48,342 nt of DNA from Phycisphaerae bacterium (lineage in GTDB: Bacteria; Planctomycetota; Phycisphaerae; UBA1845; Fen-1342). Location of the stretch: assembly GCA_023128695.1 (NCBI GenBank), contig JAGMDK010000260.1, positions 1-48,342 on the forward strand. The letters are read 5' to 3'. Below are positions 7,411 to 23,845 of this stretch, one piece after another. The notes beneath the pieces are model-generated. The model had not been told where the DNA came from. It searched no databases and saw nothing but the letters and a program-made list of their open reading frames with translations. How positions within the stretch are numbered: the first letter of the stretch is position 1; every line of letters begins with the position of its first letter. The translations under genes were made by a program, and so were the position numbers.

Positions 7411-7663
7411 GGGAGGGCGAGGCTCCTGCCGAGCCAAGCCGTGTGCCACTGCTCTTGAGCAGTGCCCAAGCGACCGCCGGTCAGAAAAGACACTGCTCAA
7501 GAGCAGTGGCACACACGCCGAGCGGGAGGGCGAGGCTCCTGCCGAGCCAGGGGCGCCACGGCCCACGGGAGGGCGAGGCTCCTGCCGAGCCGGGGGCGCC
7601 ACGGCTCAGCAGGAGCTTCGCCCTCCCCTTGGCCACGGCTCAGCGGGAGCTTCGCCCTCCCTT
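7411..7663. repeat. Cluster of repeat families A and B
   Basis: Between the convergent GTPase and activator genes lie family A units (core GGGAGGGCGAGGCTCCTGCC) at 7411-7436, 7524-7550 and 7567-7591 in one orientation and at 7603-7627 and 7637-7662 in the other, plus an inverted pair of family B at 7441-7464 and 7491-7514. The last A unit extends into the activator gene and provides its final six codons and stop. The dense inverted arrangement would form strong hairpins and may end transcription from both sides. Confidence 0.85.
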
Positions 7664-9034
7664 TTGGTCGAGGTTGAATTCCGCCATCCGCTTGTACAGT
7701 GTGGTTCTGCTGATGTGAAGCCGGCGGGCCGCCTTGGCGACGTTCCAGCCCGTTGCCGTCAGGACCTCTCGCACCCGCTCAGGCGACAGGTCTGCCCGGC
7801 CACGCCCTCGTGAACGAACCGGCGCGTCGTGAGCCGGCGATTCCACGCCGCCGGATTCGCCCTGACGCAGTTCGAGCGGCAGGTGCGCGGGACGGATGAG
7901 GCCGCGGCGCGCCTTGACGAATGCGTGTTCGACAGCGTTCTCGAGTTCGCGTACGTTGCCCGGCCAGCGGTGGTCGAGCATGAGTGCCAGAGCTTCTTCG
8001 TCGATCCCGTCGATTGCCCGCCCCGTCTGCTCGCGGAACCTTTCGACAAAATGCTGGGCCAACAGCGGAATATCATCGCGCCGCCCGCTAAGCATCGGCA
8101 ACCGAATCGGCACCACCCGCAGGCGATAGTACAGATCCTGCCGGAATTGCCCGGAGGAAACCAGTTCCGCAAGCGGACGATTGGTGGCGGCGATCACGCG
8201 AATGTCGACCGCCAGCGGCTGCTCATCTCCCACGCGCTCGATCGTTCGCTCTTGGAGCACGCGCAGCAGCTTGACCTGTATGTTAGCGGATATGTCGCCG
8301 ATCTCATCGAGGAAGATCGTTCCGCCGGACGCCGCCTCGAACCGGCCGCGCTTGTCGCGCAGAGCTCCCGTGAATGCGCCGCGCGTATGCCCGAACAACT
8401 CGCTTTCGAGCAAGCTCTCCGGCAGGGCGGAGCAGTTCACGGCCACGAACGGGCCGGCGGCCCGGGGGCCGAGATGGTGAATGGCGTGCGCGACAAGTTC
8501 CTTACCGGTGCCCGTCTCGCCTTCGATCAGGACCGTGGCGTCCGAGTCAGCCACTTGCTCGATGAGCTCGAAGACGTCTTGGATTGCCTTGCTCTTGCCG
8601 ATGATGTTGTGAAGCCGATAGCGCGTGCCGAGATCACGCCTCAGGTTGACCAACTCGGTTATGTCGCTGAAGATCACGACCCCGCCCCCCGTTCTTCGCT
8701 CCCCCGCACGGAAGACGACGCTACGCATCGTAAAGACCTTCCGGTGCTCGGCGTTCATTTCGAGGTTCACCTCGTCGAAGCGGATCGGCTGCCTCTTCGA
8801 GATCGACTCCCTCAGCCGGGAGCCCGGGGCGCAGATCTCCTCGCCCAACAAGCAGGGGCAGCCGTGTTTCAAGGCTTCCGCTTTGGATATGTCCAAAAGC
8901 TCGCACGCAGCGCGGTTAATGCCGATCACATTGCCGTGGTCGTCGAGCGTGACGATCCCTTCATCGAGGCTGTCGAGAACCGCCTCGAAGTCGCCGCCGT
9001 CCAGCACCTGGTGTTCCGGCTGGCTCTTGCTCAT
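7640..9034 (-). CDS. PAS-containing sigma-54-dependent transcription activator
   Basis: A 464-residue NtrC-type activator. Residues about 13-125 are a PAS domain with a Cys cluster (C59, C61, C68). The AAA+ domain has Walker A GETGTGKE at 172-179, the sigma-54 contact loop GAFTGA at 219-224 and Walker B FLDEIGD. A Fis-type helix-turn-helix closes the protein (WNVAKAARRLHISRTTLYKR). There is no receiver domain, so the PAS domain is the likely sensor, perhaps of redox state. The ATG at 9034 is preferred to a GTG at 9091 because GGAGG stands just before it. The last residues GGRSSR and the stop are encoded by a repeat unit. Its targets are not evident; the large minus-strand operon just upstream is a candidate. 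Confidence 0.9.
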   Translation of the reverse strand: MSKSQPEHQVLDGGDFEAVLDSLDEGIVTLDDHGNVIGINRAACELLDISKAEALKHGCPCLLGEEICAPGSRLRESISKRQPIRFDEVNLEMNAEHRKVFTMRSVVFRAGERRTGGGVVIFSDITELVNLRRDLGTRYRLHNIIGKSKAIQDVFELIEQVADSDATVLIEGETGTGKELVAHAIHHLGPRAAGPFVAVNCSALPESLLESELFGHTRGAFTGALRDKRGRFEAASGGTIFLDEIGDISANIQVKLLRVLQERTIERVGDEQPLAVDIRVIAATNRPLAELVSSGQFRQDLYYRLRVVPIRLPMLSGRRDDIPLLAQHFVERFREQTGRAIDGIDEEALALMLDHRWPGNVRELENAVEHAFVKARRGLIRPAHLPLELRQGESGGVESPAHDAPVRSRGRGRADLSPERVREVLTATGWNVAKAARRLHISRTTLYKRMAEFNLDQKGGRSSR

Positions 9035-9094
9035 GGCAACCGCCTCCGTCAGTGGGGAGAAAAACGCCTCCTGCACACTTATCATAGACACAAG

Positions 9095-13174: not shown

Positions 13175-13633
13175 TCATTCTTCTCCATGCCGTTGCTTCG
13201 TAATCCGTGCCTGGTCCATGAACTTTCCGCGTGCCGTGGCCATGAGCTGACCGTTTTGTACGACCTCAGCTTTGAGCACGTGCAAGGGAGGAGAGCAGCG
13301 TTCCACCCAGGCCCGCACGGTGACGGCCACGCCCGTGCGCACCGGATGCCGAAAGCGCACCGTCAGTTCCGCCGTCACGGCCGGGATGCCGTGAGCAAAC
13401 ATGCAATTGGTCATCGCGCCGTCCAGGAGGGAGGCAACCACACCACCGTGCAGCATACCTGCATAACCTTCAAAGGCTGCGTCGCAATCGAAGCGCGCCT
13501 GCACGCGGCCGTCGTCGGACGCCGCAAACTTCAGTCGCATGCTCCGGTCATTTGAGGGGCTACAGACCACGCAGTTTGAATGTACTTGGGCGCGCACCTG
13601 CTGCAACCCGTCTTGGGCGCACTCAATGGTCAC
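13175..13633 (-). CDS. PaaI-family hotdog thioesterase
   Basis: A 152-residue hotdog-fold protein with the signature LHGGVVASLLDGAM, in which His-Gly-Gly and the Asp of the following helix form the active site. It should hydrolyse a small acyl-CoA. The start is a GTG lying inside the end of the Mrp-ORP gene, with GGAGAG seven bases before it, so translation is coupled. A decayed copy lies at 11243-11351. The presence of a thioesterase, CoA-disulfide reductase and CoA-transferase in a row adds a CoA theme to an otherwise metal/sulfur operon. Confidence 0.85.
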   Translation of the reverse strand: MTIECAQDGLQQVRAQVHSNCVVCSPSNDRSMRLKFAASDDGRVQARFDCDAAFEGYAGMLHGGVVASLLDGAMTNCMFAHGIPAVTAELTVRFRHPVRTGVAVTVRAWVERCSPPLHVLKAEVVQNGQLMATARGKFMDQARITKQRHGEE

Positions 13634-14846
13634 AGATGTTCTCTCCGGCCTGTAACGCTCCGTTCAGGTATGCGGTTGCCAACTGCTCGGGCGTCTCGGC
13701 CGGTGCGCCCACGACGACAGTGATGCCGTTTTGCGCGAACAGTTGCTGTGCCCGCTGGCCCATGCCGCCGGTAATGATCACGTTGGCGCCAAGCTCGTGC
13801 AGCCAGCGCGGCAGGGCTCCCGGCTCGTGGGATGGTGGCTTGTGCATGGTCTTGCCGAGGATCGCCTTGTCATCCTCGTTGACCTCGTACAGTGCGAACT
13901 CCTCGCAATGTCCAAAGTGCATGCTCACACGTCCTGCCTGTACAGGGATTGCAATCTTCATACGACGATCCTCCTTGCCTTGATTCTCTGTTGCGACACT
14001 GGCGTGTGCTGGTGTTTGTTGTCCCAGGAGCAAGCCCACGACGTCGGCGAACGCCTGGGCGCCGAGACTGTTCGTACGGTTGTCAATGAACGGGATTCCC
14101 GCATCGCCTGATGTAACGATATCCGGATCGATCGGGATCGATCCCAGGAATGGCACGCTCATTTCATCAGCCAGGGCCTTGCCGCCACCTTTCTTGAACA
14201 AATCGATTTGCTGCCCACAGTTTGGGCAAACAAAGCCGCTCATATTCTCCACGATTCCCGCAACCGGCAACGACAGACTGTTGCAGAAGGACACGCAGCG
14301 GCGCACGTCCGCGACAGCCAGGTCTTGCGGCGTAGTTACGATCACGGCCTCCGCCGGCGAACCGACGAGCTGAGCGACCGACAGCGGTTCGTCCCCCGTT
14401 CCCGGCGGTGAATCGACGACCAAGACATCCAGGTTGCCCCAAGCGACGTTTGTCAGGAATTGGCGTATGAGGTGAAACTTGCGCGGGCCGCGCCAGATCA
14501 CGGGCTCGTTACCACTGGGCAACAGGAACCCGATCGACATGACCGCCAGTTTGTCGTTCATGTGGACCGGCGACATGTCCTCTCCGGAAACGCCGATCTG
14601 CTTACCCTCCAGCCCCAGTAGTTTCGGAATGCTCGGTCCGTGGACGTCGACGTCCAGGAGGCCGACGGCCTTGCCGGCTAGTGCCAGGGATACCGCCAGG
14701 TTGGCAGCCACGGTGCTCTTCCCGACGCCGCCTTTGCCCGACAGGACGAGCAGCTTTCGTCGGATGGTCTTCATCCGGGCTTGAAGCATCTGCTCGTCAC
14801 GCTGCCGCTGGGCCTCGTCAATTGGTTGTGCCTGTTGCTGTGACAT
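13623..14846 (-). CDS. Mrp/NBP35-type ATPase fused to a C-terminal ORP (NifX-like) domain
   Basis: 407 residues in two parts. Residues about 30-270 are an Mrp-type iron-sulfur carrier ATPase: deviant Walker A GKGGVGKST, DVDVHGPS, DSPPGTGD and the cluster-binding CPNC. Residues about 296-407, from MKIAIPVQ, are a dinitrogenase-cofactor-type domain (NifX/NifB/ORP) with HFGHCEEFALYEV and GANVIITGGMG. This is the MrpORP architecture known from sulfate reducers, where it is linked to the Mo-Cu orange protein. The ATG at 14846 has AGGAG six bases before it and overlaps the upstream MinD gene by 29 bases. An internal start at 13961 may yield the ORP domain alone. Confidence 0.92.
   Translation of the reverse strand: MSQQQAQPIDEAQRQRDEQMLQARMKTIRRKLLVLSGKGGVGKSTVAANLAVSLALAGKAVGLLDVDVHGPSIPKLLGLEGKQIGVSGEDMSPVHMNDKLAVMSIGFLLPSGNEPVIWRGPRKFHLIRQFLTNVAWGNLDVLVVDSPPGTGDEPLSVAQLVGSPAEAVIVTTPQDLAVADVRRCVSFCNSLSLPVAGIVENMSGFVCPNCGQQIDLFKKGGGKALADEMSVPFLGSIPIDPDIVTSGDAGIPFIDNRTNSLGAQAFADVVGLLLGQQTPAHASVATENQGKEDRRMKIAIPVQAGRVSMHFGHCEEFALYEVNEDDKAILGKTMHKPPSHEPGALPRWLHELGANVIITGGMGQRAQQLFAQNGITVVVGAPAETPEQLATAYLNGALQAGENICDH
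13959..13976 (-). promoter_or_regulatory. Internal Shine-Dalgarno and ATG within the Mrp-ORP gene
   Basis: Reading the minus strand, AAGGAGGAT at 13976-13968 is followed after six bases by an in-frame ATG (13961) that begins exactly at the ORP domain (MKIAIPVQAG). This would give a 112-residue stand-alone ORP. The match to the 16S tail is better than that of most gene starts in the window, and its placement at the domain boundary makes chance less likely. It may also be the fossil start of an originally separate gene. Confidence 0.5.
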
Positions 14847-15741
14847 TTGGACTCCTGAGCGTCTCCAGGACGTTTGCCCAGAGTTGTCGAACATCGGCCG
14901 TGACACCGTCCGTTGCATACTCGGTGATGGACTGCATCCTGATCTGAGCCTCCGTGATGGCCCGATCGTAGCGAACTCTCCCCGCCACCTTAAGACCGCG
15001 GCGGCGCGCCAAGGCTTCGATGTTTAGCGTGAGATTCTCGTTTATATCCCATTTGTTGATGCAAATCAGCGTTTCGACGCGGAAATGCCTGGTCAAATCT
15101 GATACACGTTCCAGATCATGCCGGCCGCTTAATGTCGGCTCCGTAACTACCAAGGCCAAATCAGCCCCTGTTATCGAGGCGATCACCGGACAGCCGATGC
15201 CTGGTGAGCCATCAATGAGAACCAGATCACGCGCGCGGCTTTTGGCGGTCTCCCGCGCCCGCTCGCGAACCAGGCTGACCAGCTTGCCGGAATTCTCTTC
15301 CGCGATACCTAACTTGGCATGCACCATCGGTCCGGCGCGCGTCTCGGATACGAACCACTCCCCGTTGATCGCGGGAGCAAACTCGATGGCCTCCTCGGGG
15401 CAGAACCAAGCACAGACGCCGCAACCCTCGCAGGCGATCGGATCGATGCGATACGCCTTTTCGCGCTGCCCTTCATCGGCTTCGCGGGAAGAAACCGCAT
15501 CAAACCGGCACACTTCCGCGCATTTCCCACAGGCCGTGCAGCGTTCGGGCATAATCCGGGCCTGCGAGCCGCCGGAAAACGTCTCGCGTTTGACAATCGT
15601 CGGGTCCAGGACGAGATGGAGATCGGCCGCGTCGACGTCGCAATCCGCCAGAACGGCGTTTTCGGCCAGCGTGGCGAACGCGGCCACGATCGACGTCTTT
15701 CCTGTCCCGCCCTTGCCACTGATGATGACCAGTTCTTTCAT
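14818..15741 (-). CDS. MinD-family ATPase with inserted 2x[4Fe-4S] ferredoxin domain
   Basis: A 307-residue P-loop protein: Walker A SGKGGTGKTS near the N-terminus, then a ferredoxin insert with two clusters (CTACGKCAEVC and CEGCGVCAWFC, about 65-115), then the rest of the MinD fold (LVLIDGSPGIGCP). Such ATPases occur as pairs beside ORP proteins in Desulfovibrio and other anaerobes, and a paralogue lies at 17687. The ATG at 15741 overlaps the methyltransferase stop as ATGA. It probably couples ATP hydrolysis to electron or metal-sulfur transfer during cofactor assembly; this is inference from the family. Confidence 0.9.
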   Translation of the reverse strand: MKELVIISGKGGTGKTSIVAAFATLAENAVLADCDVDAADLHLVLDPTIVKRETFSGGSQARIMPERCTACGKCAEVCRFDAVSSREADEGQREKAYRIDPIACEGCGVCAWFCPEEAIEFAPAINGEWFVSETRAGPMVHAKLGIAEENSGKLVSLVRERARETAKSRARDLVLIDGSPGIGCPVIASITGADLALVVTEPTLSGRHDLERVSDLTRHFRVETLICINKWDINENLTLNIEALARRRGLKVAGRVRYDRAITEAQIRMQSITEYATDGVTADVRQLWANVLETLRSPNVTATGTTN

Positions 15742-16313
15742 GAAGCGGTTCCCGTCTTTCGAAGCCTTTCCGGGCGGAAACCTCTGGCCCAAATGAGCCG
15801 GCGTCGCTCAATCAATCGCACCGAGGTTTCCTGATACCCAGCCTTATCGAGCATCCCGGCCAACTCCTCCGGGCTGTAGTAATCCTCACCCCACAGACGT
15901 TGCGCCAGCGAATCCCGTGGGAATTCCACAATCAGGATCTCCCCGCCGGGGCGCAAGACACGCTTGGCTTCCCGCAGGATTGTCCTGGCGTGTTTCATCT
16001 CGTGCAGGGCCCACAGCACTACGACCGCGTCCACGGATTCGTTCGCTGCGAAGTCAAGATGAGCTGCGTCTTTTCGAACGTAGCGAATCCGCGCGTTCCT
16101 GGATGAGCGAGGCCGTTTTGGAAAGTCCGCCGAGGAGATGTCAACCCCGGTGACGTGCTGGCGATACACTTGGGCCAGGTATTTCACCAACCCGCACGCG
16201 CCACAGCCGAGATCGAGGACGCGACCAGCCAGACGCAATTCGCGCCCGATCCGCTCATACAGTCGCGGCTTGATCCTGTCGTAGAAGTTCATCTTCAGCA
16301 TTTTGCCGGACAC
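15738..16313 (-). CDS. Class I SAM-dependent methyltransferase
   Basis: 191 residues with motif I VLDLGCGACGLVKYLA, the acidic loop GVDISS, and ALHEMKH followed by VLRPGGEILIVEF, as in UbiE/COQ5-like small-molecule methyltransferases. The C-terminus holds the DYYSPEELAGMLDKAGY segment typical of the type. The GTG start is supported by GGAG eight bases upstream. The substrate is unknown; within this operon methylation of a metal-binding thiol or an arsenic/selenium-type compound would be speculation. Coupled by ATGA to the MinD gene. Confidence 0.88.
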   Translation of the reverse strand: MSGKMLKMNFYDRIKPRLYERIGRELRLAGRVLDLGCGACGLVKYLAQVYRQHVTGVDISSADFPKRPRSSRNARIRYVRKDAAHLDFAANESVDAVVVLWALHEMKHARTILREAKRVLRPGGEILIVEFPRDSLAQRLWGEDYYSPEELAGMLDKAGYQETSVRLIERRRLIWARGFRPERLRKTGTAS

Positions 16314-16356: not shown

Positions 16357-17307
16357 TCATTGAGGCGCGCTATCGTCGTCTGTTCGTTTCGCGAATCGGT
16401 AGAACGCTCCCGCGCCGCTACCCTCGCAGACCAGCACGTGCTCCCTGAGCAACTCGTCCAAGTACTTCACGACCTCATTGGAATGCAGTCCGAGCCCGGT
16501 GGCCAGATCGTTCAGTGTACACGGGCGCCGCATCAAGAGGTTGAGAATATCCTCCCGGCGGGCCTGATAATACTCGCCATGATGTACGGTTTGGTATTCA
16601 GCGATCACCTCGGCGCGGTCTCCGAAGAGCCGAGCGGCCTGTGTGAGTTCGTCAAGCGGCACCGGCCGGGCAAATGCCTCGCAGGGGGGGCGTGTTACCG
16701 TGTTCAACTGCACGCGGTCGGGCATAATCCGATCTAGCCAGCGAGCAATCCTCTCCTGCTGGATGCCGGCTGCGTTTAGACCTTTCAGGAGAAACACCTC
16801 GAGCCAGAGCGGTTTGGAGAACCGCTGCCGAAACTCCTCGATTCCAGTTACCATGCGGTCGAAGAGAATCGCCGCGTGCGGCCGGTTTACCCACTGGAAC
16901 GTGGCCTCGTCGCCGGCGTCCAGCGAGGGGATGACGAGATCCGCTTCCAGGAGCGCTTCCTGCACGTCACGGTCCCACAGCAGCGACCCGTTCGTCAGCA
17001 CGGCGACGGGCCGGTCGGTTCTTTCCTTGATCCCCGCGATCAGTGGCGCCAAACGGGAATACAAGGTGGGTTCGCCCGATCCGGACAACGTGACATAGTC
17101 GGCTTCCGGTCCGGCCGCCAGCCGGCACTCGAGTTCCTCCAGGACTTCGTCCAACGGGACATATTCCTTCCGTTCAATGGTCTTGTTCGTCGTTCGGCCG
17201 AGCTGGCAATAGATGCAGTCGTAGGAGCACGTCTTGAACGGTACCAGGTCGATGCCCAGTGAACGCCCCAGCCGACGGGACGGCACGGGTCCGAATACGT
17301 GGCTCAT
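16357..17307 (-). CDS. Radical SAM protein with C-terminal winged-helix segment
   Basis: 316 residues. The cluster motif CSYDCIYCQ lies near residue 27, and the glycine motif LSGSGEPTLYS follows. The first residues MSHVFGPVPSRRLGRSLGID are typical of a radical SAM group found in anaerobes and archaea next to Mrp/NifX genes. The last 70 residues (ILNLLMRRPCTLNDLATGLG onward) resemble a small winged helix. The reaction is unknown; a nearby precedent is NifB, which uses radical SAM chemistry in metal-cofactor assembly, but this protein is not NifB. AGGTGA precedes the ATG. Confidence 0.88.
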   Translation of the reverse strand: MSHVFGPVPSRRLGRSLGIDLVPFKTCSYDCIYCQLGRTTNKTIERKEYVPLDEVLEELECRLAAGPEADYVTLSGSGEPTLYSRLAPLIAGIKERTDRPVAVLTNGSLLWDRDVQEALLEADLVIPSLDAGDEATFQWVNRPHAAILFDRMVTGIEEFRQRFSKPLWLEVFLLKGLNAAGIQQERIARWLDRIMPDRVQLNTVTRPPCEAFARPVPLDELTQAARLFGDRAEVIAEYQTVHHGEYYQARREDILNLLMRRPCTLNDLATGLGLHSNEVVKYLDELLREHVLVCEGSGAGAFYRFAKRTDDDSAPQ

Positions 17308-17375: not shown

Positions 17376-17690
17376 CTAATCCGCGCCATCCTGATCGTGC
17401 GGGAGTCCACGGTGCGGAGCTTTCTGTCGCCGGCTTCCCAGGCGCAGAGCTGACAGGAAGAACGCGGAAATACCGCCGAACAGCCCGGCGAAAGCAGGCC
17501 CACCCGCGCACCCGGGCTGACCGCAGAACGGACACACGGAGAACGCGGTCAAGAACGCGAACAAGCCGGCCCACCACCCCAAAAAGCGGGCCAGCGGTGC
17601 CAGGAAGCGGCGCTTGGCCGATCGACACAATTTCCGTGTGCCAGGGCCGGCAGATTGTTCGGTGGTGCCGGACTCGTTCGCGCGACTCAT
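17376..17690 (-). CDS. Small membrane protein with Cys-rich CPFCGQPGC motif
   Basis: 104 residues. A basic N-terminus is followed by a hydrophobic helix (about 35-52), the motif CPFCGQPGC at about 53-61, and a second hydrophobic helix (about 64-83). The two CxxC-like elements lie at a membrane edge, which suggests metal or cluster binding or a disulfide switch. I do not recognise the family. The start is firm: AGGAG precedes the ATG, and the ATG overlaps the stop of the MinD gene as ATGA, so it belongs to this operon. It may anchor the ATPases to the membrane (inference). Confidence 0.7.
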   Translation of the reverse strand: MSRANESGTTEQSAGPGTRKLCRSAKRRFLAPLARFLGWWAGLFAFLTAFSVCPFCGQPGCAGGPAFAGLFGGISAFFLSALRLGSRRQKAPHRGLPHDQDGAD

Positions 17691-18553
17691 GGTTCTCCTG
17701 TCCGATGCGGCAGCAACGACTCCTCCAGCCGGGCCTGAAGCTGTTCGAACGCCGCTTGAGTCTCCGGCACGGCGTCGATCACGAGCTCCCCGCGCGAATA
17801 CGCCTCCGCGATGCGTCGGTCGTCTGGAATCTCAAGCAACACCGGAATCTGCTCGGCGGCACAGTAATCCACAACGCGGCCGTCGCCGACATCGGCGCGA
17901 TTGATGACCACGCCGAACGGAAGCTCCAGTTGCCGCACGGTCTCCACCGCCAGTATCAGGTCATTGAGCCCAAACGGCGTCGGCTCGGTAACGAGCACGA
18001 CGAAGTCACTATTAAGCACGGCCGTAATGACCGGACAGGACGTACCCGGCGGGGCATCGATGACGAGCCAGTCAACGTCCGGGGCCGCGGCCCTGACCGC
18101 CTTGATCACCGGCGGACTTTGGGCCTCGCCCACGTTCAGCAGACCGTGCACAAACTGGACCGGGCCGGCCTGCCCGCGCTCCACGACGCCAATCTCTCGC
18201 GGCACCTCGATAATCGCCTGGCAGGGGCAGGCCAAGGCGCAGCCGCCGCAGCCGTGGCACAGCTCCGGGTATACGAGGACCTTCTGTCCCAGACACACGA
18301 TCGCGCTGTATTGGCAAATCGCGCCGCACTGACCGCACTGCTCACACGCCTGTTCGATGACTCGCGGCACCGGTATCGCCACCGGCGTACGCTCAGCGAG
18401 GGCGGGTTTGAGGAACAGGTGTCCGTTGGGTTCTTCCACGTCGCAATCCAGGTACGCCGCGGAGCGTCCCTGGCGCGACACCGCCACGGCCAGATTCGTG
18501 GCCAGTGTTGTTTTGCCGGTTCCGCCCTTGCCGCTGGCTATGGCTATTCTCAC
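17687..18553 (-). CDS. MinD-family ATPase with inserted 2x[4Fe-4S] ferredoxin domain, second copy
   Basis: 288 residues: Walker A SGKGGTGKTT at 8-17, ferredoxin insert with CEQCGQCGAIC and CHGCGGCALAC (about 70-115), then LVIDAPPGTSCP and VLVTEPTPFG of the MinD fold. It is the partner of the paralogue at 14818. Two adjacent ATPases of this type accompany ORP proteins in known clusters, where a heteromeric complex is suspected. It opens with GTG and has only a weak ribosome binding site, so it may depend on translation from the ferredoxin gene 45 bases upstream. Confidence 0.9.
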   Translation of the reverse strand: MRIAIASGKGGTGKTTLATNLAVAVSRQGRSAAYLDCDVEEPNGHLFLKPALAERTPVAIPVPRVIEQACEQCGQCGAICQYSAIVCLGQKVLVYPELCHGCGGCALACPCQAIIEVPREIGVVERGQAGPVQFVHGLLNVGEAQSPPVIKAVRAAAPDVDWLVIDAPPGTSCPVITAVLNSDFVVLVTEPTPFGLNDLILAVETVRQLELPFGVVINRADVGDGRVVDYCAAEQIPVLLEIPDDRRIAEAYSRGELVIDAVPETQAAFEQLQARLEESLLPHRTGEP

Positions 18554-18779: not shown

Positions 18780-19475
18780 TTATCCTTCCTGTTCCAACTG
18801 CTGAATCCGCTGCTGCAATTGGCGCATTTGTTCGGTCATGGCATCCGCCTGCCGCTTGAGCATCGCCAACTCATCCTCCTTGCTGAGGTCTTGACCCGGC
18901 GGCAACGTCGAAGCCGGATCGTCTCCTGGCGGTCCAGCACCCATGCCCATCCCGCGGCCCATGCCACCGCCGCGCCCCATGCCCCGTCCCATGCCGCCGC
19001 CTCGGCCCATACCACCACCCCTTCCCATCCCGCGGCCCATGCCCATGCCCCCACCGGACATCCGCGGTTGCTGGAATGGTGTCGGCTGGCCCTGAAGAGC
19101 GCTGGGCGCGCCAGCCATGCCGGCATGGCCGGGGACGTTTGGCTGTTCTGTCGGCTTGAGCTGACCGGCCTTGAACAGCTCGGCCACGTCCCGAACCGTC
19201 CCAGAGCAGCCGATAATCACGCCGATGCCGGCTGCCGACAGGGTCTGATGGGCGTTCGGGCCGCAGTTGCCGGTCAGAACGTACTGGACGCCCTTGTCGG
19301 CCATGATCCGGGCCGACTGAATCCCGGCTCCCTGACCGAGCTCCTGGCTGGCGTTGTCAATCGCCTCGAAGCTCATGTCGTCGGTCTCGACGATCAGGAA
19401 ATAGGGGCAGCGGCCGAAGCGCGGTTCAACACCCGACTCCAGCCGCGGTTCCGTAGCGGTAATTGCGATTTTCAT
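18780..19475 (-). CDS. ORP/NifX-type protein with Gly/Met/Arg-rich tail and coiled coil
   Basis: 231 residues. Residues 1-115 are a dinitrogenase-cofactor-type domain (MKIAITATEPRLESGVEPRFGRCPYFLIV, shown here in parts: MKIAITAT, FGRCPYFLIV, YVLTGNCGPNA). Then follows a low-complexity tract of GGGMGRG units (about 140-180) and a C-terminal helix LAMLKRQADAMTEQMRQLQQ likely to form a coiled coil. The tail resembles the layout of the DUF5320-type protein at 20900. It probably binds a metal-sulfur species; C24 and C93 by sequence are candidate ligands. The ATG at 19475 is chosen at the domain start; AAAGGA stands 12 bases before it. Confidence 0.88.
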   Translation of the reverse strand: MKIAITATEPRLESGVEPRFGRCPYFLIVETDDMSFEAIDNASQELGQGAGIQSARIMADKGVQYVLTGNCGPNAHQTLSAAGIGVIIGCSGTVRDVAELFKAGQLKPTEQPNVPGHAGMAGAPSALQGQPTPFQQPRMSGGGMGMGRGMGRGGGMGRGGGMGRGMGRGGGMGRGMGMGAGPPGDDPASTLPPGQDLSKEDELAMLKRQADAMTEQMRQLQQRIQQLEQEG

Positions 19476-19522
19476 GTGTGTTGTTGTCCTTTCGTTTAGC
19501 AGTCCGCCGCAACAGTCATGAT

Positions 19523-20434
19523 TCACAGTCCCGCGGAACCTGCGTCCTCGATTTCATTCGTGTCCCCGGCGGCAACCCGGGCGTGCCTCGATCTCCGCAG
19601 AATCAGACTGCCGACGCGGCAGCCCAGATCTCTGGCGATCACGGGGCATTTTGCCTTGAGCACAAAGAAGATGTCCTTCTCCACCTCGTTGAGCGTCTCA
19701 TAGTTGCCCTGACCTTTCGCGACGATCATGTCTGCCGCGTCGAAACGGTGCCGGAACTCGCTGCTGCAATCGTCGAGAATCGTGCCCGGCGCATCCGAAC
19801 CGTTGTCGATGACTTCGACCAGCCCGGGAATCCCCGCGGCCTGCGTGTCGGCGATCGTCACATCATTGATCACCGGAAAGCCCCGCACGGCCACGGTCAC
19901 CTTCTCGACCGGCATCTGTTCGAGCAACAGCCGGTCGAACACGATCTCCCCGGCGTTGTCGGCCAAATAGAGAATTCTTCGCGCCCCGGACAGCGTCTCG
20001 GCAAAGGCACGCATGTCGCCGTCCAGCGGTGCCGACGAAGCATCTTCAATCGCCTCGTGCAAGGCAGGTTCGTCAAAGTGGGCCTTGACGCCCATGTCAA
20101 TGACATTGCCGGCGATCGCCAGCCGCAGAGCTGTCTCCAACGGACGGGATGAGGCGTGCACCCGAGCGCGCAGCTTCGGATAGAGCTCCAGCGCCACCCG
20201 AGTGGAGTGATCCTTCAGCTCACGATACGGATCACTTTGACCCGTCAGGCGGCGAATCAGACGATGGATGCGTTGGCCCATCGCCGGCGGTGATTGCCAC
20301 AGGTCCATTTCACTAGCGGCTCGCAGGATCTCTCGCAGCAGCCGCTCGTGAACCTCCTCGTCGTCGGTCACCAAGCGCACGGAATCAAGCGCCTGTCGGA
20401 CGAAGCAGGGCACGCACTCAAGGTAGGTTTGCAT
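19523..20434 (-). CDS. DUF89 / ARMT1-like metal-dependent phosphatase family protein
   Basis: 303 residues of the DUF89 group. The N-terminal MQTYLECVPCFVRQALD with its CxxC is typical of the prokaryotic subfamily, and LADNAGEIVFDRLL plus VIDNGSDAPGT are the metal/phosphate site. Members are damage-control phosphatases that remove harmful phosphometabolites; this subfamily is often encoded beside Mrp and NifX genes in anaerobes, where its role is unknown. The gene start lies 17 bases inside the preceding ferredoxin gene, so the two are coupled. Confidence 0.9.
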   Translation of the reverse strand: MQTYLECVPCFVRQALDSVRLVTDDEEVHERLLREILRAASEMDLWQSPPAMGQRIHRLIRRLTGQSDPYRELKDHSTRVALELYPKLRARVHASSRPLETALRLAIAGNVIDMGVKAHFDEPALHEAIEDASSAPLDGDMRAFAETLSGARRILYLADNAGEIVFDRLLLEQMPVEKVTVAVRGFPVINDVTIADTQAAGIPGLVEVIDNGSDAPGTILDDCSSEFRHRFDAADMIVAKGQGNYETLNEVEKDIFFVLKAKCPVIARDLGCRVGSLILRRSRHARVAAGDTNEIEDAGSAGL

Positions 20435-20900
20435 TGCTCGTGGCCGATCCTCTTAACCTGATGGCCCCGCGGGGGCACGCTTCCACACAGGCCCCGCAAC
20501 CGCGGCAGGCCTCCGCGTTCACCGTGACGGCCGTCTCGCCCAGGGTGATCGCCTCGGTCGGACAGACCGTCTGGCAAACCCCACACAGGGTGCACGCTGC
20601 TTCGTCGACACTCGCGACCAGCGGTGCATGAGCGGCGCGCCGTGCGGCCTCGCGCAACCTTACTGCGTCCAGGTGCTCCATGGCAAGGGTCTGGTCCTTC
20701 AAAGGGCTGAGCATCCGCGGTTTGGCCGGCGCGGCGCCTCTCGGAAGGTTCGGGGGCTGCGCTGTCCGATCACTCCTGCCGCCTTGGAGCGCGCGCCGCA
20801 TGCGTCCGCCCCGGCCACGCCCGCGTCCCATTCCGCGGCCATCGCGACGACCACGACCACCAGCACCCGGCGGCCCCGTTCCGTCACCGCGCGGCATCAT
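20418..20900 (-). CDS. Ferredoxin with Gly/Arg-rich MPxGDGTGP leader
   Basis: 160 residues. The first 40 are a glycine/arginine-rich segment starting MMPRGDGTGPPGAGGRG; residues about 95-155 form a 2x[4Fe-4S] ferredoxin (CTLCGVCQTVCP and CRGCGACVEACP). The leader repeats the opening of the two genes just upstream (20900 and 21300), so a DUF5320-like start has been joined to a ferredoxin. The ATG at 20900 overlaps the stop of the DUF5320-type gene as TGATG. It may dock with the same partner as its neighbours and deliver electrons to it (inference). Confidence 0.88.
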   Translation of the reverse strand: MMPRGDGTGPPGAGGRGRRDGRGMGRGRGRGGRMRRALQGGRSDRTAQPPNLPRGAAPAKPRMLSPLKDQTLAMEHLDAVRLREAARRAAHAPLVASVDEAACTLCGVCQTVCPTEAITLGETAVTVNAEACRGCGACVEACPRGAIRLRGSATSNANLP

Positions 20901-21259
20901 CAACCCTCTTTTTCCTTGGCCGCCTCGAGTTCCGCGATCCGTTTCCTGATCTCACCGAGCGTGCCTTCAAAATGCTCCGCCTGAGCTCTCAGTGCTTGAA
21001 CTTCCTGCTCGGCCATCACTGGCGGATAGTACGGCGCGGCCCCGTAAGCGGGCTGTGCGCCGACAACTCCCATCGGATAGTACCCATGGCGCCATCCGCG
21101 GCCCCAGCCGCGCCCGCGGCCCCAGCCGCGGCCCATGCCCCAACCGCGCCCCGGCATCTGGTTCGTGTAACCGGGCATTGAAAACCCGGCGCAGTAACCT
21201 GCCGCTCGTCCCGTCATTGAGCCCAGTCCGGCAGGGCCCGTTCCATCTCCACCTGGCAT
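20900..21259 (-). CDS. DUF5320-type Gly/Arg/Trp-rich protein
   Basis: 119 residues: MPGGDGTGPAGLGSMTGRAA at the start with a Cys in GYCAGF, a middle tract of GWGMGRGWGRGRG units, a Tyr/Pro segment, and a helical C-terminus (VQALRAQAEHFEGTLGEIRK) with coiled-coil character. The family is widespread in anaerobes near Mrp/NifX genes and has no known function. A very good ribosome binding site (AAGGAG, seven bases before the ATG) predicts high expression. The glycine/arginine tract could bind RNA, anions such as molybdate, or partners; none is shown. Confidence 0.85.
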   Translation of the reverse strand: MPGGDGTGPAGLGSMTGRAAGYCAGFSMPGYTNQMPGRGWGMGRGWGRGRGWGRGWRHGYYPMGVVGAQPAYGAAPYYPPVMAEQEVQALRAQAEHFEGTLGEIRKRIAELEAAKEKEG

Positions 21260-21490: not shown

Positions 21491-21904
21491 TCACCTCCTT
21501 TCGTGCTTGTCTGAAGACGAAAAGCGTTGCAGGTCGAGCGCCTGCATCCAATGTCCTTCTACAGTCGGCTCTCTGATACATTCAAGCTCCCCGCGCTTGA
21601 ACTGCTCCACGGCCTGCCCCACGTGCCCAGTGGCCCCGACGTAGACCTCGACATCGCCGGCTTTCAGTCTGGCCAAGGCTTTGGGGCCGACCTTCCCGGT
21701 AATCACGGCATGCACGCCCAGTTTGAGGATGGCCTCGGCTGCCTTGATTCCTGCGTACCCGAGAATATTGAGATTCCCCTTGTTGTCGTGAACCGTAGAC
21801 CGATCGGTCTCGGTATCAACCACCACGAAGAACCTGGCCCGCCCGAACCGCGGATCAAGCTCGGCCCCCAGATTCGATCCTCTTGATGTGACCGCTACCT
21901 TCAT
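21491..21904 (-). CDS. ORP/NifX-type cofactor-binding protein
   Basis: 137 residues, MKVAVTSRGSNLGAELDPRF at the start, then FGRARFFVVVD, AAEAILKLGVHAVITGKVGP and QAVEQFKRGEL, all hallmarks of the dinitrogenase iron-molybdenum cofactor (NifX/NafY/ORP) fold. Family knowledge: these bind Fe-Mo or Mo-Cu-S clusters or their precursors. No Cys is evident in the core, as in Desulfovibrio ORP, where the cluster is held non-covalently. A GGAGGGGG stretch precedes the ATG, which overlaps the stop of the gene upstream as ATGA. Confidence 0.9.
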   Translation of the reverse strand: MKVAVTSRGSNLGAELDPRFGRARFFVVVDTETDRSTVHDNKGNLNILGYAGIKAAEAILKLGVHAVITGKVGPKALARLKAGDVEVYVGATGHVGQAVEQFKRGELECIREPTVEGHWMQALDLQRFSSSDKHERR

Positions 21905-22311
21905 GCCATCCCCCTCCAACGGCCCGCTCCTGGCCGGCCGCCGTGACGCCGACCTCCCCGAAACCGTCGGCGCCGACCGCAGCAGCCCGGCATCAAGAAT
22001 GCCTCGTCCGGCAATTGCCCCGCGAGGAAGGCCCGTAGAACGTCCTCCACCGGCCCGCAAATTTGCGGTATGAGCCGTATTCCCGCGGAGGTCAACATCG
22101 CCTCAAGCGGCCACGAGATCGCGCCGCAGATAAGCACGTGCACGCCGAGCGCCGTCACCCGGCTCGCCCTAGCCGCAAGCCGCGTTTCTTCGAGATCCAC
22201 CTCACTCCGGCCGATCTCGGCGTCACGCTCGACGTCTACCACCAGCAAACGCCTGGCGACGTCGAAGACCGGAGAAATCCGGCCGTCCCATGTTGGAAGC
22301 GCTACTCTCAT
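21901..22311 (-). CDS. ORP/NifX-type protein with Arg/Gly tail, first gene of the operon
   Basis: 136 residues: MRVALPTWDGRISPVFDVAR, then GVHVLICGAISWPLEAML and LRAFLAGQL of the NifX/ORP fold, followed by PGCCGRRRRFRGGRRHGGRP, a basic Gly-rich tail with two adjacent Cys. The ATG at 22311 is preferred; a TTG at 22329 would add six residues. It is the promoter-proximal gene behind the sigma-54 promoter at 22366, with a leader of about 44 bases. The basic tail resembles the Arg/Gly tracts of the DUF5320-type neighbours. Confidence 0.87.
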   Translation of the reverse strand: MRVALPTWDGRISPVFDVARRLLVVDVERDAEIGRSEVDLEETRLAARASRVTALGVHVLICGAISWPLEAMLTSAGIRLIPQICGPVEDVLRAFLAGQLPDEAFLMPGCCGRRRRFRGGRRHGGRPGAGRWRGMA

Positions 22312-22365
22312 CACTGAGGACTCGTGCAAGACGCGCGCCGCCCCAGACGATCAGCCTCGATTCCT

Positions 22366-22381
22366 GGCGAAGTGTAGGCCA
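22366..22381 (-). promoter_or_regulatory. Sigma-54 (-24/-12) promoter candidate
   Basis: Read on the minus strand the sequence is TTGGCCTACACTTCGCC. GG and GC are spaced exactly as in the consensus TGGCAC-N5-TTGC (12 bases between the equivalent G residues). Transcription would begin near 22355, about 44 bases before the first ORP-type gene. The neighbouring gene encodes a sigma-54 activator, and two palindromic sites lie upstream at a fitting distance, which together make the call strong despite mismatches in the flanks. Confidence 0.65.
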
Positions 22382-22430
22382 AGCAAGCACTTACGCTCGC
22401 TCGCCCCGGCCTGACAATGAGCATCAGGCA

Positions 22431-22443
22431 TTGCATAATGCAA
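22431..22443. promoter_or_regulatory. Activator site 1, TTGCA-N3-TGCAA
   Basis: A perfect palindrome TTGCATAATGCAA, centred about 82 bases upstream of the predicted sigma-54 start site. The second copy with the same arms lies 32 bases away, about three helix turns, so both face the same side of the DNA. This is the normal layout of an enhancer for a NtrC-type activator, most likely the product of the gene at 22478. Confidence 0.65.
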
Positions 22444-22462
22444 GCACCGCTGGCCGCCGGTC

Positions 22463-22475
22463 TTGCACACTGCAA
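22463..22475. promoter_or_regulatory. Activator site 2, TTGCA-N3-TGCAA
   Basis: TTGCACACTGCAA, the same five-base arms with a different spacer, centred about 114 bases upstream of the predicted start site and two bases beyond the stop codon of the activator gene. The arms are conserved while the spacer is not, which is what binding-site selection would leave. Confidence 0.65.
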
Positions 22476-22477
22476 TA

Positions 22478-23845
22478 CTATTCCTTCTTCCGGCTCCCGT
22501 GCCCCGTATCCGGCAGTGCGATCCCCATGGACTTGATCTTGCGGAACAGAGTGCTGGGGTCAATGCCCAGCTCGCGGGCAGCGGCCGTACGGTTGCCGCC
22601 GTGCCGGCGGACTGCATCCGTGATGTGCATGGCCTCAAGGGCTTGCAGCGTGAGAGCGCCCTGGCCTCGCGGAGGCTTGAGGTCGGTGTCGCCACGCATT
22701 GCTGGCGGCAGATGATGTGGTTCTATCAGGGCGCCTCGGCAAAGCACGAACGCGTGCTCGATGACGTTCTCGAGCTCGCGCACGTTGCCCGGATAGTCGT
22801 GTTCCATCAGCAGCGCCAGCGTCTCTTCCGAGATGCCGGCCACGTCTTTGTCCTGGAGGCGATTGAACTTACTGATGAAACGCTCCACCAGCAGCGGGAT
22901 GTCCTCCCGGCGATCGCGCAACTCCGGCAGCTTCAGCCGGATCACGTTGATGCGATAAAACAGATCCTGCCTGAAAACGCCCTTCTTCACCAACCGGTTC
23001 AGGTCCTGGTTGGTGGCGGCGACCACGCGCACATCCACCTTCACCGGCTCGACGGACCCGAGTGGCTCGAACACTCTTTCCTGGAGGACGCGGAGCAACC
23101 GGGCCTGCATGGCGGGCGAGATATCACCGATTTCGTCGAGCAGGATCGTTCCGCCGTCCGCGCTTGCCAATCGTCCCGGCTTGTCGTGCCGGGCGTCGGT
23201 AAACGCGCCGGCCTTGTAGCCGAACAGCTCCGATTCCAACAGGGTGTCCGGCAGCGCGCCGCAATTGACCGCAACGAAACGCTTGTCACGGCGCGGCGAG
23301 AGGCTGTGCAACGCCCGGGCGACCAGCTCCTTGCCGGTACCGCTGGCGCCCTCGATGAGCACGGTTGTGTTGCTCTCGGCGATTTGCGGGAGCAGGTCGA
23401 AAAGCTGCCGCATCGCCGAACTGCGGCCGACGATGTCCGCGAACGTGTATTTCGCCTCCAACTCCTTGCGCAGCTCCTCCACCAGGCTGAGGTCCCGGAA
23501 GGTTTCCACACCACCGATCGTATCGCCAGCGGCGTTCTTCAGGGCTGCCGCCGAGATGCTGATAGGAATGCGCCGGCCATCGGCGTCGAGAATGTAGATG
23601 GCCTTATTCACGATCGACCGCCCGGAGCGGAGCGTCTCCTTCAGGGCACACTCGTTCTCGCAGATGCTCGCCCGGAACACGTCGCAGCACCGCCGCCCGA
23701 TGGCTTCCGCACGTGGCACGCCCGTGATTTGCTCGGCCGCCCGGTTGAACGACGTGATCCGCCAATCCTCATCGACGGTGAAAACGCCGTCGGCGATGGA
23801 GTCGAGGATAGTGTCCGTCACACGCTTCTCGGATGATGCGGTCAT
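22478..23845 (-). CDS. PAS-containing sigma-54 activator, likely regulator of the ORP-type operon
   Basis: 455 residues. A PAS domain (about 10-115) carries four Cys (C53, C54, C62, C66) in the pattern CC-x7-C-x3-C. The AAA+ domain has GASGTGKE at 166-173, the sigma-54 loop in the variant form GAFTDA at 213-218, and LLDEIGD. The C-terminal Fis-type helix-turn-helix reads GGNRTAAARELGIDPSTLFR. There is no receiver domain. The Cys cluster could hold an Fe-S cluster or sense oxidation. It is encoded directly upstream of the operon with its presumed binding sites in between, as for the ORP regulator of Desulfovibrio. A paralogue lies at 7640. Confidence 0.92.
   Translation of the reverse strand: MTASSEKRVTDTILDSIADGVFTVDEDWRITSFNRAAEQITGVPRAEAIGRRCCDVFRASICENECALKETLRSGRSIVNKAIYILDADGRRIPISISAAALKNAAGDTIGGVETFRDLSLVEELRKELEAKYTFADIVGRSSAMRQLFDLLPQIAESNTTVLIEGASGTGKELVARALHSLSPRRDKRFVAVNCGALPDTLLESELFGYKAGAFTDARHDKPGRLASADGGTILLDEIGDISPAMQARLLRVLQERVFEPLGSVEPVKVDVRVVAATNQDLNRLVKKGVFRQDLFYRINVIRLKLPELRDRREDIPLLVERFISKFNRLQDKDVAGISEETLALLMEHDYPGNVRELENVIEHAFVLCRGALIEPHHLPPAMRGDTDLKPPRGQGALTLQALEAMHITDAVRRHGGNRTAAARELGIDPSTLFRKIKSMGIALPDTGHGSRKKE

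Follow-up and report, generated by a model that had tools for sequence, protein, structure and literature searches.

The closest described relative of the locus considered here is the OrpR system of Desulfovibrio vulgaris Hildenborough. In the report on that system (PMC3897727), OrpR (DVU2106) and the orp1 and orp2 operons are described with palindromic sites for the activator at -131 and -88, the activator gene lies between two divergent operons and represses its own expression, and a figure legend marks Shine-Dalgarno sequences in the promoter regions. DVU2106 was also listed with a GAFTDA motif in a sigma-54 regulome (PMC4641369), and MrpORP (DVU2109) was described as having two domains, a Mrp/NBP35 ATPase and a dinitrogenase-cofactor (NifX-like) domain (PMC6345978).

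The window, that is, the whole 48,342-nucleotide stretch of Phycisphaerae DNA that was analysed, very likely contains an OrpR-type sigma-54 circuit made up of an activator, paired palindromes, a promoter at 22325-22340 and an ORP-type operon. Such a circuit is in outline already known as OrpR/orp of Desulfovibrio. What appear to be new, as read from the sequence, are a corrected promoter, a merged co-directional operon and a probable near-leaderless start, as well as a paired operator that forms a conserved module across families, with single sites reaching a second phylum. An earlier note on this DNA had tied activator, palindrome pair, sigma-54 promoter and operon together; that tie is strongly supported when genera, families and two phyla are compared, although the note misplaced the promoter and missed the probable near-leaderless start.

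The operon, its activator and their Desulfovibrio counterparts

The activator gene and the operon, which occupies the minus strand from 22311 down to 13623 as one run in the same direction as the activator, comprise the following genes.

22478-23845, minus strand: activator gene, OrpR-like, with PAS, sigma-54 AAA+ with GAFTDA, and Fis-type HTH
21901-22311, minus strand: first operon gene, NifX/ORP-type (PF02579), ATG at 22311-22309
21491-22060, minus strand: second NifX-type gene (PF02579), whose ORF as listed extends upstream of the MKVAV start conserved in the family
20900-21259, minus strand: DUF5320 gene
20418-20903, minus strand: ferredoxin-type gene with two 4Fe-4S motifs
19523-20434, minus strand: DUF89/ARMT1-like gene
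18780-19526, minus strand: NifX-type plus DUF5320 gene
17687-18553, minus strand: ParA/MinD-type ATPase gene with ferredoxin insert
16357-17307, minus strand: radical SAM gene
14818-15792, minus strand: second ParA/MinD-type ATPase gene with ferredoxin insert
13623-14918, minus strand: MrpORP-type gene (PF10609 and PF02579), a Mrp/NBP35 ATPase with a NifX/ORP domain fused at its C-terminus

The activator gene thus adjoins ORP-type genes, the MrpORP-type gene included, and the operon resembles the genes of the ORP complex (DVU2103-2109; PMC6345978) in its Mrp-NifX-like fusion and its ferredoxin-type and NifX-type partners, but forms one longer run that additionally holds DUF5320, DUF89 and radical SAM genes. 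As in D. vulgaris, a single-component sigma-54 activator with GAFTDA is found with ORP-type targets, and palindromes lie upstream of sigma-54 promoters, with centres at about -123 and -155 in the window and at -131 and -88 in D. vulgaris (PMC3897727); the centres in the window are near the -131 position given there for the orp1 site. Unlike the divergent D. vulgaris arrangement, the window has its activator and a single merged operon in the same direction, with the operators behind the activator gene, and is further set apart by the 32 bp separation of the pair and the probable near-leaderless start. Relatives of the same order belonging to family f4 (e.g., L042-L049) carry the same activator family and have paired palindromes before a NifX1 operon and a single palindrome before a NifX2/Mrp operon. 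As in D. vulgaris, their activator has a divergent operon on either side, in contrast to the one merged operon of the window; being present in f4 and absent here, the divergent layout is a variable and non-essential trait of the family. In L042-L049, one of the divergent operons has a near-leaderless promoter and the other a leader with a Shine-Dalgarno sequence.

Pfam matches of the activator (PF00158, PF25601, PF13426 and PF02954) outline an N-terminal PAS domain, a sigma-54 AAA+ domain and a C-terminal Fis HTH, and no receiver domain was found in the Pfam scan. The GAFTDA loop is present in the window activator and in 89 of 99 homologs, and the genome has one sigma-54 factor gene. PAS cysteines Cys53, Cys62 and Cys66 are present in 99, 98 and 99 of 99 homologs, respectively, and could hold an iron-sulfur cluster, so that they form a candidate cluster site in the window activator. 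OrpR itself reportedly holds a [4Fe-4S] cluster, according to a 2021 paper on the protein.

A second gene for a sigma-54 activator, sharing 43% identity with the first, occupies 7640-9091 on the minus strand, next to genes for acetyl-CoA hydrolase/transferase and pyridine nucleotide-disulfide oxidoreductase; no TTGCA palindrome was found near it. Another copy of the activator, 80% identical, was seen at L173/L234 (G110:C66), with one TAG reported in frame.

The palindrome pair, the promoter and the predicted start

The control elements between the activator gene and the operon are as follows; offsets are counted from the start of the distal palindrome.

22463-22475, minus strand: distal palindrome TTGCAGTGTGCAA, starting 2 nt past the activator stop codon, centre about -155
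22431-22443, minus strand: proximal palindrome TTGCATTATGCAA, centre about -123
22366-22381, minus strand: earlier -24/-12 candidate TGGCCTACACTTCGCC, offset 94, score 7/12
22325-22340, minus strand: likeliest sigma-54 promoter CGGCGCGCGTCTTGCA, with -24 GG and -12 GC, 10/12 consensus positions
22314, minus strand: predicted transcription start, 12 nt past the -12 C (±2 nt), from sigma-54 geometry

The earlier description of two TTGCA-N3-TGCAA palindromes with unlike spacers, 32 bp apart, proved exact, the plus-strand letters being TTGCATAATGCAA at 22431-22443 and TTGCACACTGCAA at 22463-22475, and their placement between activator gene and operon, both on the minus strand, was borne out. The separation of 32 bp is measured from start to start. 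Two copies of the motif in the window compare with 0.01 expected from window shuffles, and only four occur in the whole 4.47 Mb assembly, the remaining two being within a coding ORF of contig C169 and on a short contig without ORP genes. On the opposite strand, a sigma-70-like match (CTGACA-17-CATAAT, 22411-22439, plus) overlaps the proximal palindrome, perhaps by chance.

Candidate promoters were scored against the sigma-54 consensus TGGCACG-N4-TTGCW over 12 positions. CGGCGCGCGTCTTGCA lies at offset 135, and 14 of the 15 loci aligned have a -24/-12 element at offset 130-137, with a mode of 136. The corresponding promoter of sister genome G006, TGGCACGCATCTTGCG, matches 11 of 12 consensus positions; the -24 of the window element opens with CGG, not TGG, and in several relatives the -12 reads GT or GA, not GC. 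That the true promoter might instead be the element at 22366-22381 was the earlier proposal, which would imply a leader of about 44 nt; its exact GG-N10-GC spacing was confirmed and its TGGC is a good -24 core. Its -12, however, is TCGCC, not TTGCW, for a score of 7/12; in G006 the TTGGCC at this position has become TGAGCA, with loss of the GG; and in the other aligned relatives no element was found at the same offset. Matches to TGGC-N7-TTGC with up to one mismatch, of which TGGCCTACACTTCGCC is one, number 73 in the window against 51 expected. With a better and conserved element at 22325-22340, TGGCCTACACTTCGCC is very probably not the promoter, and a true promoter at 22366-22381 is considered most improbable; the likely element lies some 41 bp nearer the gene. 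The distances of about 82 and 114 bases quoted earlier for the palindromes are thus wrong, having been counted from the misassigned promoter. With that promoter rejected, the predicted start falls at about 22314, and the palindrome centres fall at about -123 and -155.

Sigma-54 transcripts usually start 12 nt after the -12 C, and the predicted start in the window is therefore only about 3 nt ahead of the ATG, a start codon that can be inferred with confidence, as the first strand of the NifX fold, which is conserved, starts at this ATG. Of the 44 palindrome-bearing loci of NifX1 type, 35 have a -24/-12 element 12-16 nt ahead of the ATG, compared with 0.1 in dinucleotide shuffles, and with the usual start geometry the NifX1 mRNA leader would be 1-5 nt; a strong Shine-Dalgarno sequence was found in none of the 35 loci having the close promoter. 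NifX2-type loci with a palindrome have the element 25-55 nt before the ATG and a strong Shine-Dalgarno sequence, in each case 13 of 13. More distant relatives (L265-L272) have longer leaders. The operon mRNA of the window therefore probably has almost no leader, the start being a predicted one. A broader reading is favoured with some reserve, namely that across at least two phyla the NifX1 operon is leaderless (1-5 nt), whereas the NifX2/Mrp sister operon, with the same activator and palindrome, keeps a leader and Shine-Dalgarno sequence. Could the same circuit operate with an mRNA that is not leaderless, supplied mainly by read-through from the activator gene or by an additional upstream promoter? 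Activator and operon do run in the same direction, and the interval between them yielded no terminator-like site, as such an arrangement would have it, but the strongly conserved promoter-to-ATG distance of 12-16 nt, without a Shine-Dalgarno sequence, and the retention of both leader and Shine-Dalgarno sequence in the sister operon make this rather unlikely. In the partly available texts from a full-text literature search on leaderless transcripts together with sigma-54 or RpoN, general start-site maps were found and the present case was not described.

Conservation of the operator among relatives

Orthologous activator regions were taken from relatives, the order, the class and Desulfobacterota. 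A perfect palindrome was found within 800 bp of the activator in 33 of 100 such regions, compared with a mean of 0.22 per 100 for 59 control palindromes matched in composition, and a palindrome with at most one mismatch was found in 54 of 100 within the same distance; since some close relatives are included, the locus counts are not all independent. In many genera the palindrome starts a few bases past the activator stop codon, and pairs 31-33 bp apart recur upstream of the same operon in many genera. The scan of related genomes that had been proposed for the paired motif in front of ORP-type genes was rewarded: a pair-only search of 114 genomes of the order found it in 11, against 0 for a reversed control, with a spacing of 32-33 bp in nine of the 11, the other two being a tandem repeat and an 18-bp pair. 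The earlier note had also named the lack of palindromes in relatives with the same gene order as telling against its reading, and on this point the outcome favoured it. A wide-gap pair scan of public genomes gave, among the matches listed, mostly unrelated chance or tandem-repeat pairs, and among the 80 loci listed the same locus appeared only in L096, a Planctomycetota MAG. This match and two weak PF07596 hits in the genome would fit a planctomycete as the probable source of the DNA.

Two arrangements bear on what the motif accompanies. In genome G013, activator (L036, C190) and operon (L284, C10) are on separate contigs, and the operon, with NifX1 and DUF89 genes, keeps the paired palindromes and a promoter near the ATG; the motif thus follows the operon, given that the pair persists where the operon is parted from the activator. 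In Desulfobacterota L206 and L207, perfect palindrome copies flank the activator gene on both sides. Several activator orthologs were without the motif within 800 bp, the operon of some being situated elsewhere, and the same was true of many OrpR-like activators in Desulfobacterota L213-L231, which may use a different operator.

Many repressor families typically use short symmetric operators, which, together with the lack of palindromes near the activator at some ortholog loci, could suggest that the palindromes serve another regulator, for example a repressor, and that the activator works through different sites. Against this, the sites keep an almost constant distance from the sigma-54 promoter and, like enhancer sites, are placed far upstream; in D. 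vulgaris, palindromic sites of DVU2106/OrpR have been described (PMC3897727). The presence of the palindrome also tracks the recognition helix of the activator, being more common with TLFRK/TLYRK than with TLWRK/TLRRK (Fisher p ~4e-4, a value that ignores relatedness, with up to one mismatch allowed in the motif). A different regulator is accordingly held to be very unlikely, and the palindromes are taken further as sites of the OrpR-like activator.

Proposed circuit and its significance

What the sequences themselves show is the palindrome motif with its spacing, a conserved promoter at an almost constant distance from it, and the families to which the genes belong; from D. vulgaris and the family we infer binding by the activator, looping and a redox signal. 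By analogy with D. vulgaris OrpR, the activator (22478-23845) would sense redox or iron-sulfur status through its cysteine-bearing PAS domain. Conservation of the pair suggests that activator dimers may bind the two TTGCA-N3-TGCAA sites, which are separated by three helical turns, after which the bound activator would oligomerise and, with DNA looping, drive sigma-54 RNA polymerase at 22325-22340. The single downstream ORP-type operon would then be transcribed from about 3 nt before the ATG, and its first gene read as a nearly leaderless message. Between activator sites and promoter, an IHF consensus with at most one mismatch is weakly enriched (11 of 35 loci, about 5.7 expected), and the genome has two HU/IHF-family genes.

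In summary, comparison with the OrpR/orp system has provided a searchable OrpR-family operator, a paired TTGCA-N3-TGCAA motif 32 bp apart and about 91 bp before the -24 GG, and would extend the OrpR circuit beyond sulfate reducers. The promoter correction matters in that mutational or start-mapping work would otherwise target the wrong bases. Should the near-leaderless start prove real, it would tie leaderless translation to a sigma-54 redox switch in an unusual and conserved way, and, if the contrast between the NifX1 and NifX2/Mrp operons holds, a single redox activator would feed two modes of translation start.
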